64,000 bases of DNA from positions 1,550,001 to 1,614,000 of the forward strand of contig CP012068.1 in assembly GCA_001189495.1 (NCBI GenBank), read 5' to 3'. The position numbers and the translations under genes were made by a program. A model generated the notes under the pieces. That model did no database searches. It was not told where the DNA came from and saw nothing but the letters and a program-made list of their open reading frames with translations. Numbering within the stretch: position 1 is the first letter of the stretch; each line of letters begins with the position of its first letter. The DNA is from Eubacterium sulci ATCC 35585. GTDB taxonomy: Bacteria > Bacillota > Clostridia > Peptostreptococcales > Anaerovoracaceae. Shown in pieces: positions 1,926 through 28,507 of the stretch.

Positions 1926-2024
1926 TGTCAGAGTAGGATTTGGCGCGTTAAGTGTCGCAGGATGGGAGTTGTCTGCGAACGAAAGGAATTTATTCCTGCG
2001 GTGCCAATTCCGCATCCGCTGCCA
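1926..2024 (+). promoter_or_regulatory. Tetrahydrofolate (THF) riboswitch aptamer
   Basis: The sequence matches the folT-type THF aptamer, including the signature GCGTTAAGTG at 1945-1954. The helices can be traced by eye. P1 is 1926-1931 with 2019-2024 (one mismatch) and P2 is 1936-1944 with 2003-2011 (one mismatch). P3 is TCGCAG 1955-1960 with CTGCGA 1973-1978, and the apical hairpin is AGGAA 1984-1988 with TTCCT 1993-1997. The pseudoknot GGATG 1960-1964 pairs with CATCC 2013-2017; P3 and the pseudoknot share base 1960. It sits directly upstream of a folate carrier gene, the classic context of this class. Confidence 0.95.
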
Positions 2025-2033
2025 CTTTAGATT

Positions 2034-2069
2034 CTTCTTTTGTGGCATAGCCATGAAAGGAGTTTTTTT
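2034..2069 (+). terminator. Riboswitch expression platform: intrinsic terminator that covers the folT ribosome binding site
   Basis: A 13-bp stem, 2034-2046 with 2050-2062 (two or three G-U pairs), has a 3-nt loop and is followed by seven T (2063-2069). The 3' arm contains AAAGGAG, the only plausible Shine-Dalgarno site of the next gene. Bases TGCCAC at 2020-2025, the 3' strand of aptamer helix P1, are exactly complementary to GTGGCA at 2042-2047 in the 5' arm. This predicts an antiterminator in the ligand-free state and termination when folate is bound. Confidence 0.85.
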
Positions 2070-2070
2070 A

Positions 2071-2589
2071 ATGAAAACAAACACAAAACAAATGACGCTG
2101 AATTCAGTTCTAGCCGCTATTTGCGCAACTCTAGCCTTCCTTGCAATCTCAACGCAGGGAATGAAGATCACCTTTGAGAGTTTCCCCGTTCTCATCGGCG
2201 CATTGTTATTCGGACCGCTAAGCGGAGTTGCCATCGGTACACTAGGTACCGTAATCTACCAGCTGCTCAAATTCGGCATCACATTCACAACACCACTTTG
2301 GATTCTACCATACACTCTCTACGGACTGTATGTGGGATTATATGCAAAGCGTCACGGCTTCAAGCTAAGCACTAAGCAAACATTCTTCATCATAATGTCA
2401 GGAGAGCTTCTGATTACAGTAATCAACACTATTTCACTCTATATAGATAGCCACATCTACGGCTACTACACTCCTGCTTTGATTTTAGGACTTCTGCTTC
2501 CTAGACTTGGACTCTGCGTTGCAAAGGGAATCGCATTCTCAGTAATCGCACCTCAGATAGTGAAGCCACTTCAGAAAATATCAAAGTAA
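2071..2589 (+). CDS. folT: ECF transporter substrate-binding subunit, folate type
   Basis: 172 residues from the ATG chosen because AAAGGAG lies 8-9 bases before it; an upstream in-frame start would read through the riboswitch. The protein is a small integral membrane protein with about five or six hydrophobic segments and the N-terminal region TLAFLAISTQGMKITFESFPVLIGALLFGP, typical of S-components of energy-coupling factor vitamin transporters. Folate is assigned from the THF riboswitch and the surrounding C1-folate genes. It would need the shared EcfA/EcfA'/EcfT module, which is not in this window. Confidence 0.88.
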   Translation: MKTNTKQMTLNSVLAAICATLAFLAISTQGMKITFESFPVLIGALLFGPLSGVAIGTLGTVIYQLLKFGITFTTPLWILPYTLYGLYVGLYAKRHGFKLSTKQTFFIIMSGELLITVINTISLYIDSHIYGYYTPALILGLLLPRLGLCVAKGIAFSVIAPQIVKPLQKISK

Positions 2590-2601: not shown

Positions 2602-4443
2602 ATGGAAAACACAAACAAAAGAATGAAGGCTGAGCAAATCCTCACCTACGATGATGCGTTAAACTACATCGAAAACTACACATGGAGCAAGACTCGCCTA
2701 GGTCTTTCGAGAACCTACGAGCTACTTGATGCGCTCGGAAACCCACAGGATTCACTTAAATTTGTCCACGTAGCCGGAAGCAACGGTAAAGGAAGTACCT
2801 GCGCAATGCTCTCATCGATACTGTCAAAGGCTGGATTTAAGACAGGTTTCTATCTGTCCCCTCACCTTTTCAGTTTCTGCGAGCGTTTTCAGATAAATGG
2901 AAGACAAATCGCTGAAGAGGATTTCATAGATATAACAAGGAAGGTTGCAGCCGCTGCGGACAGCCTAGACGACCATCCTAGTCAGTTTGAAATTTCGACC
3001 GCCATAGCCTTTCTCTACTTCAAGACTCAGGGCTGTGACATCGTCGTTCTCGAAGTTGGCATGGGGGGAAGCCTAGACAGCACCAATGTTATAAATGCTC
3101 CAGAAGTTGCCGTAATCTGTAACATCGGCCTAGACCACACAGATTTCCTCGGAAACACTCTTGCCGAAATAGCAGAAAACAAAGCAGGCATTATTAAGCC
3201 CGGTTGCGAGGTAGTTTGCTACGAAATGGCTAGCGAGGCGCTATCAGTCATAGAAAACAGATGCAAGGAGCTAAACACTCCTCTTCATATATCAAAGTTT
3301 GATAGCCTAAAGTATCTAAACCAAAGCCTGAAATCTCAATCCTTTAGCTACGATGGCATAGAATACTCAATATCCCTTCTCGGCGAGCACCAGTGCAAAA
3401 ACGCCTCTGTCGCAATAGAGGTAATTAAAGCGCTCCGCTCAAGAGGATGGACAGTCTCTGACGAGTCCCTAAAGCAAGGCCTCCGCGACGCTAAATGGCC
3501 AGCAAGATTTGAGATACTGTCACTTGACCCTATATTCATTTTAGACGGAGGGCATAATCCACAGTGCGCCAGTTCCATTGCTAAGGCAATCTCAGACTAT
3601 CTTCCTGAGCAGAAGCTTAAACTTGTGATTGGAATGCTTGCAGACAAAAACGTCAGCGAGGTCATAGATATAATTGCACCTAAGGTAAGCGAGTTCTACT
3701 GCCTTGCGCCAGATAGCGATAGAGCAATGGCAGCTGGCGAACTTGCAGGTTTGATTAGGTCAAAAGGATTAAACGCTAAGGCATACGCTTCAAGCGAAGA
3801 TTGCCTATCTGAAGTTTTAGATACTGCAGGTGAACAGCCTGTAATGGCATTCGGATCACTATACCTTGCAGGAGAACTTAGAAAAAGCGCTGCAAAAGTA
3901 CTTCAGAAAAAGCAAAGAAAAGAAGCTCTAGCTGCAAGAAACTCACTCAGCAGTGACTATATAGAGAAGGCATCTCATGCAATCTGCGAAAAGCTTATCT
4001 CTAGCGATGACTTTCAAAGCGCTAAGAAGATATTCGTTTACAAGGCTGTAGCTTGTGAGGTAAGGCTTGATGATTTGATAGAAAAAGCATTGTCCCTTGG
4101 TAAGGAGATATATTACCCACTCTGCAAAAGTAAGGGTGAAATGCTAGCCCTAAAACCAGGTCAAGATACAGTTTGGAAAGAGGGTTCTTTCGGAATATCA
4201 GAGCCTAGTGAAGACGGATCTAGCGAAGCTAAACCGAGCGAGCTAGACCTCATAATATGTCCGCTGGCTGGCTTTGATGAAGCTGGAAATCGCATAGGAA
4301 TGGGCGGTGGATACTACGATAGATTTCTTGCGAAAGCTGGATTAGCAAAGGTCGTAGGAGTTGCCTTTGATTGCCAGAGGCTAGAGAGAATACTTGCTCA
4401 GCCACATGACATTGCGCTTCCAAAGATAATCACAGAAAAATAA
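2602..4443 (+). CDS. folC: Fusion of folylpolyglutamate synthase and 5-formyltetrahydrofolate cyclo-ligase
   Basis: 613 residues in one uninterrupted frame. Residues 1 to about 430 are a Mur-ligase-like FolC: the ATP loop AGSNGKGST is at 58-66, followed by FYLSPHLFSFCERFQING and EVGMGGSLDSTN. This part adds glutamates to folates and possibly also acts as dihydrofolate synthase. Residues about 436-613 are a complete 5-formyl-THF cyclo-ligase, with KKQRKEALAARN at its start, GMGGGYYDRF at 566-575 and a family-like end with HDIALPKIITE. That half converts 5-formyl-THF to 5,10-methenyl-THF using ATP. The start lies 12 bases after the folT stop and has a weak ribosome binding site. Confidence 0.92.
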   Translation: MENTNKRMKAEQILTYDDALNYIENYTWSKTRLGLSRTYELLDALGNPQDSLKFVHVAGSNGKGSTCAMLSSILSKAGFKTGFYLSPHLFSFCERFQINGRQIAEEDFIDITRKVAAAADSLDDHPSQFEISTAIAFLYFKTQGCDIVVLEVGMGGSLDSTNVINAPEVAVICNIGLDHTDFLGNTLAEIAENKAGIIKPGCEVVCYEMASEALSVIENRCKELNTPLHISKFDSLKYLNQSLKSQSFSYDGIEYSISLLGEHQCKNASVAIEVIKALRSRGWTVSDESLKQGLRDAKWPARFEILSLDPIFILDGGHNPQCASSIAKAISDYLPEQKLKLVIGMLADKNVSEVIDIIAPKVSEFYCLAPDSDRAMAAGELAGLIRSKGLNAKAYASSEDCLSEVLDTAGEQPVMAFGSLYLAGELRKSAAKVLQKKQRKEALAARNSLSSDYIEKASHAICEKLISSDDFQSAKKIFVYKAVACEVRLDDLIEKALSLGKEIYYPLCKSKGEMLALKPGQDTVWKEGSFGISEPSEDGSSEAKPSELDLIICPLAGFDEAGNRIGMGGGYYDRFLAKAGLAKVVGVAFDCQRLERILAQPHDIALPKIITEK

Positions 4444-4447
4444 ACTT

Positions 4448-4474
4448 AGCCCTGCATCAAATGCAGGGCTTTTT
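4448..4474 (+). terminator. Intrinsic terminator of the folate operon
   Basis: Perfect 10-bp stem AGCCCTGCAT / ATGCAGGGCT with a CAA loop, followed by TTTT on the plus strand, just after the folC stop. Confidence 0.9.
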
Positions 4475-23583: not shown

Positions 23584-23587
23584 ATGA

Positions 23588-23703
23588 ACCGGCAACGTCC
23601 TATCTTCCCGGGCAGTCGCCCACCAGGTATTGTCGGCGCTGAAGAGCTTAACTACTGTGTTCGAGATGGGAACAGGTGTGACCTCTTCGCTATAATCACC
23701 GGA
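23588..23703 (-). rRNA. rrf: 5S ribosomal RNA
   Basis: Minus-strand sequence has the closing stem CCGG..CCGG. It shows the conserved CGAAGAGGTCACACC, GTTCCCATCTCGAACACAG and GGTGGGCGACTGCC segments. Ends are estimated from the terminal stem. Confidence 0.93.
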
Positions 23704-23758
23704 TTAAACCTTACTAAATAACGCTTCTCACTAGCATTTCTTTTCCTTTGAAACCACT

Positions 23759-26643
<2,885 letters not shown>

Positions 26644-26867
26644 ATCAAGTGTGTAGCTTTTACCATTATTAATTAACTTCAGTAAATTGCTCTTTTCTGG
26701 TTTCTCGGTTGAAATCGTTTACCCTTGCTATTCGTTAGACTCTCTTTCGATTATCTTAGAAACTTACGTTTCTAGCAAAAATTTCTCGATTTCGTTTCGT
26801 TGTGATTTGTTGTTTTACAAATCTTTTCGTTTTTTTGTGATACACGTTATTTAGTTTTCAAGGTTCA

Positions 26868-26943
26868 TGGTGGAGAATAAGGGAATCGAACCCTTGACCC
26901 CCTGCGTGCAAAGCAGGTGCTCTCCCAGCTGAGCTAATTCCCC
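26868..26943 (-). tRNA. tRNA-Ala (anticodon TGC)
   Basis: 76 bases with encoded CCA. Acceptor stem GGGGAAT/ATTCTCC, D arm AGCTCAGCTGGGAGAGC, anticodon loop TTTGCAC and T arm AGGGTTCGATTCCCT. It lies in the 16S-23S spacer, the normal location; the other 224 bases of spacer before 23S hold no gene. Confidence 0.97.
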
Positions 26944-26983
26944 ACGATACCAGAGAAAATTCTCATAGCATGAAATGGTCTAT

Positions 26984-28507
<1,524 letters not shown>

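Follow-up and report, generated by a model that had tools for sequence, protein, structure and literature searches.

The leader of folT in Eubacterium sulci ATCC 35585 is very probably a THF-I riboswitch that lies within a folate one-carbon gene cluster and acts as an OFF switch for folT and folC/MTHFS. Both the riboswitch class and the type of expression platform are already known, and the folT leader is a new example only. All coordinates refer to the window, i.e. the entire 64-kb stretch of contig CP012068.1 that was analysed, and features are on the plus strand unless stated otherwise.

Results

A full-length THF-I aptamer upstream of folT

In a cmscan search, the Rfam model RF01831 (THF, THF-I) matches positions 1927-2023 (+) with 83.4 bits (E 8.4e-18; cut-off, i.e. 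gathering score, 36 bits) over model positions 1-99 of 99, and a genome-wide scan gave this match only in the 1.74-Mb genome. A first-pass annotation of the same DNA had proposed a complete THF riboswitch and named a covariance-model scan as the check; the full-length match with its good score bears this out. The P1 helix is formed by GTCAG (1927-1931) and positions 2019-2023 in the cmscan alignment, and is weak, with standard pairs at four positions and a U.C mismatch at one (1928/2022). Such a short, imperfect P1 suits a helix that must be given up. L3 GGATGGGA (1960-1967) is able to pair with CATCC (2013-2017) in J2/1 in two possible registers, giving a predicted pseudoknot, which had also been traced in the first-pass annotation. 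The U residues at 1934, 1963 and 1969 may be the counterparts of U7, U35 and U42, a tentative mapping. In PDB 4LVV, U7, U35 and U42 are the ligand-contacting uridines (PMC6614920).

The aptamer has the inverted three-way junction layout of the THF-I class, and we found nothing in it that differs from this class. The context, by contrast, is a variation, because the aptamer follows folD inside a one-carbon gene cluster. The class was reportedly described by Ames et al. 2010, Huang et al. 2011 and Trausch et al. 2011. THF-II riboswitches (folE motif) share the ligand class and are simpler two-helix RNAs, found in Gram-negative bacteria upstream of folE and with the SD inside P1 (PMC6800512). Assignment of the leader to THF-II was dropped, as the match is to RF01831.

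The gene cluster and folate supply

The gene order is fhs-fchA-folD-[THF switch]-folT-folC/MTHFS. The 3' end of fhs (formate-THF ligase; PF01268) is at 45-335, where the gene is cut by the window edge, and is followed by an fchA-like methenyl-THF cyclohydrolase gene (421-1032; PF04961, with NF045657 below its cut-off) and by folD (1033-1893), which ends 33 nt before the aptamer. The whole fhs gene is present in the corresponding locus of [Eubacterium] infirmum (L031). Downstream of the aptamer are the regulated gene, which encodes a FolT-like ECF transporter S component (2071-2589; PF12822, 50.1 bits, above cut-off), and folC fused to the gene for 5-formyl-THF cyclo-ligase (MTHFS) (2602-4443; TIGR01499, 391 bits; TIGR02727, 160 bits). 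It is established that THF-I riboswitches precede folT, folC and folE, and the position upstream of folT and folC is as reported for Gram-positive bacteria (PMC9881143); this aptamer too lies ahead of folate transport and synthesis genes, with the FolT-like S component and FolC/MTHFS on its 3' side. The FolC/5-formyl-THF cyclo-ligase fusion is a single protein of 613 aa and is also found in [Eubacterium] infirmum. Beyond it, between folC/MTHFS and the convergently oriented PEP carboxykinase gene, lies a hairpin (4448-4470) that resembles a terminator and has T runs on both strands. Elsewhere in the window are a ribosomal protein L10 leader (RF00557, 62858-62973 (-), 78.1 bits) and a 16S-tRNA-23S-5S rRNA operon (23587-28506 (-)).

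In the genome, no match was obtained for GTP cyclohydrolase I (folE), FolE2 or HPPK, and the sole Pterin_bind match is a MetH-like protein; DHFR and ECF T components are encoded. Because folE, FolE2 and HPPK have no match and Pterin_bind is matched only by the MetH-like protein, folate import should be needed, and we predict from gene content that the organism is a folate auxotroph that depends on imported folate. Given this predicted dependence, feedback from the intracellular pool on import makes sense.

The terminator contains the SD of folT

An intrinsic terminator hairpin (2034-2062) starts ten bases 3' of the aptamer end and has 13 bp, of which 5 are G-C, a loop ATA and a predicted energy of -14.6 kcal/mol. 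The SD AAAGGAG (2056-2062) forms the last part of its 3' arm, and the U tract TTTTTTT (2063-2069) doubles as the spacer between the SD and the folT start codon, ATG 2071. The 13-bp terminator and the placement of the SD within its arm had both been noted in the first-pass annotation, and both stand. Two other candidate starts, the in-frame ATG 2053 and the TTG 1969 of a longer frame, were discarded, as neither has an SD. Among 72 ORFs in a control that covers the 64-kb window, only start 2071 has an SD that lies within a terminator-like hairpin.

The switching strand consists of the P1 3' strand CTGCC plus AC (2019-2025) and is the alternative partner of GTGGCA (2042-2047) by sequence and duplex tests. 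GTGGCA would be the antiterminator 3' strand and, at positions 2042-2046, is within the terminator 5' arm; folds of growing transcripts adopt this pairing at 2047. In the minimum-energy antiterminator fold, AGA (2029-2031) adds a minor extension by pairing with TCT (2036-2038). It had been claimed that a P1 3' strand TGCCAC is exactly complementary to GTGGCA. The complementarity of TGCCAC (2020-2025) to 2042-2047 is indeed exact; however, P1 (2019-2023) holds TGCC only, and AC is just outside it.

The leader is strictly conserved in [Eubacterium] infirmum

The leader (1927-2070) is identical at 144/144 positions in [Eubacterium] infirmum, including 97/97 in the aptamer, whereas its surroundings have diverged. 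Identity is 81-86% in the flanking coding DNA, 57% at fourfold-degenerate sites (43% divergence), 55% in the folD-aptamer gap, 55-67% in gaps next to the leader and 61-79% in other small gaps; the two FolT proteins are 91% identical. This argues that the whole leader, platform included, is under selection. In view of this conservation and of the window-wide control, a chance hairpin was dropped as an explanation.

Complementarity is kept across relatives

RF01831 matches were found in 94/149 sampled genomes of the same family, and 90 loci were taken for analysis. The next gene mostly encodes a FolT-family S component (TIGR04518 match in 77 of the 87 scanned), and in 9 it is folE. In a simple pattern scan, which could overlook some hairpins and starts or place them wrongly, the SD is inside a U-tailed hairpin in 22/90 leaders from many genera; the remaining leaders show either a terminator apart from the SD or no terminator. 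Within these 22 leaders, pairing between the P1 3' strand region and the terminator 5' arm beats shuffled sequences at p<=0.05 in 16. Moreover, with the strand extended to 14 nt and the target restricted to the terminator 5' arm, 20 non-redundant, diverged SD-in-hairpin leaders pair with their own arm at a mean of -9.44 kcal/mol vs -6.99 kcal/mol for swapped arms, a difference reached by 0/20,000 permutations. Swapping with just the last 8 aptamer nt gave no significant result by duplex energy (211/1000) and a significant one by exact match (1/1000). The two strands also change in step, with TGCCAC/GTGGCA in the window and TGCTACA/TGTAGCA in a relative (L035).

Other arrangements occur in the family. 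Two congeners (genomes G095 and G144; loci L104 and L105) have no RF01831 match and carry a classic FolT (149-154 bits) before folC, with a short gap ahead that leaves no room for an aptamer. Two genomes have two THF riboswitches each (G047 and G088; loci L010, L092, L013 and L093). In another locus, a ZMP/ZTP riboswitch (RF01750, 51 bits; L037:443-534) precedes the THF riboswitch by ~4.3 kb.

The regulated S component is a divergent FolT relative

The S component scores 50.5 bits with TIGR04518 (FolT), below the curated cut-off of 60, which counts against our preferred explanation; some members of the same clade pass this cut-off, e.g. L037 with 64.2 bits. No solved structure was found for it by phmmer. 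The model predicted for it has a pLDDT of 88 and, in VIA-align, comes nearest to FolT 4z7f (Z 17.3, rmsd 2.7, 159 aligned); RibU and ThiT are tied with FolT within 1 Z, and the fold alone therefore does not name the substrate. The protein has the clade signature YxDSxIYGYY and is without the FPGFT motif of most classic relatives. E. faecalis FolT contacts folate through R26, K36, D64, F80, T81, N117 and R142, and substitutions D64A and F80A abolish binding (PMC4525288). In an alignment with classic relatives, the glutamate-side lysine, asparagine and arginine of this pocket are apparently kept, and the pterin-side R26, D64 and F80 are apparently replaced. When relatives of the S component were collected by protein search alone, a THF aptamer was directly upstream in 9/9, including the distant L039 (34% identity); a tenth match (L040) was left out because a contig end cuts the locus.

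Judging by its sequence, the S component is a member of a divergent FolT-like clade rather than a classic FolT. A tentative and rather doubtful suggestion is that this clade, tied to THF riboswitches and one-carbon genes, imports not folic acid but reduced or one-carbon folates, and feeds the FolC/5-formyl-THF cyclo-ligase fusion. Streptococci are known to have an S component for reduced folates, ThfT (PMC9712650).

Discussion

Based on these data, we suggest a model in which the P1 3' strand decides between two competing structures. When reduced folate is scarce, this strand (2019-2025) would pair with GTGGCA (2042-2047) once the latter is transcribed. The antiterminator pairing would delay the terminator such that RNA polymerase clears the U tract, and folT and folC/MTHFS would be made. 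By contrast, with THF or a one-carbon derivative bound, P1 would be held and GTGGCA would be free, the 13-bp terminator would form and transcription would stop. In transcripts that escape termination, the same hairpin would hide the SD and could reduce folT translation.

Fold energies, which are nearest-neighbour estimates that ignore the pseudoknot, constrain when this decision can be made. In isolation, the antiterminator is at -12.0 and the terminator at -14.6 kcal/mol, and these values, together with the complementarity kept across relatives, favor the on/off exchange between P1 and terminator that the first-pass annotation had put forward. As the transcript grows, the minimum-energy fold is the antiterminator at 2047 and becomes the terminator from 2060 onwards. 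For explicit structures ending at 2047, the antiterminator is at -37.2 kcal/mol vs -27.3 kcal/mol for P1, i.e. ~10 kcal/mol apart without ligand or pseudoknot, whereas in the finished RNA the terminator fold (-42.6 kcal/mol) lies ~5 kcal/mol below the antiterminator fold (-37.9 kcal/mol). Thus, antitermination must be kinetic, and the ligand would have to act before ~2047 is transcribed. The same energies imply that read-through RNA could refold and may stay translationally weak even without ligand, which counts against our preferred explanation.

How the hairpin acts could also be read differently. The switch could be purely transcriptional, with the SD inside the terminator as a mere result of leader compactness and translational control playing no real part. 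The canonical U tract on the hairpin and the terminators that are apart from the SD in some relatives speak for this reading, and read-through RNA gets ribosomes soon after its synthesis. However, the SD is in the terminator in 22/90 examined relatives from many genera, and many other relatives are without a terminator and presumably translation-only. We therefore regard a purely transcriptional switch as a serious but less probable option. Alternatively, the terminator could be weak, with most transcripts read through and the hairpin mainly governing ribosome access. This is in line with G-C pairs at just 5/13 positions of the stem, with a terminator fold that is the more stable one in the finished RNA, so that the SD would be closed at equilibrium, and with the many relatives apparently without any terminator; but it is unlikely, given the seven T that directly follow the 13-bp stem and are unchanged in [Eubacterium] infirmum.

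A different question is where transcription starts. If the leader had its own promoter, there would be no control point inside the operon. Promoter scans gave matches at chance numbers only, anywhere, which leaves room for such a promoter. However, the 33-nt folD-aptamer gap, 55% identical in the sister species, has no terminator-like or promoter-like site that we could find, and the order folD-[THF]-folT-folC is kept in three relatives (G011, G044 and G093); we consider a separate promoter improbable. Because the gap is without promoter or terminator and is not conserved, read-through from folD into the switch and folT, and hence co-transcription with folD, is likely.

The preferred reading, an OFF switch with dual control of transcription and translation, follows a published design. 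In the dual platforms of Barrick and Breaker 2007, the ribosome site is in the 3' side of the terminator, which can act on transcription and then on translation, and the terminator ends <=10 nt before the start codon (PMC2258182). In the folT leader, a U-tailed hairpin between aptamer and gene ends 8 nt before the start codon (2062 vs 2071), and we found no difference from this platform type. Dual control fits the published definition, and we infer the translational part. Since SD-burying terminators were described as dual platforms in 2007, the folT leader is a further case of a known kind.

For dual-platform THF-I riboswitches, the folT leader adds a case from the [Eubacterium] infirmum lineage that is cleanly annotated and strongly conserved. 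Placed as it is, the switch could allow folT and folC/MTHFS, which serve folate uptake and retention, to be controlled apart from the upstream one-carbon enzymes. The switch also points to a clade of S components whose substrate merits testing. In a predicted folate auxotroph, such a switch would be the main feedback on folate supply.
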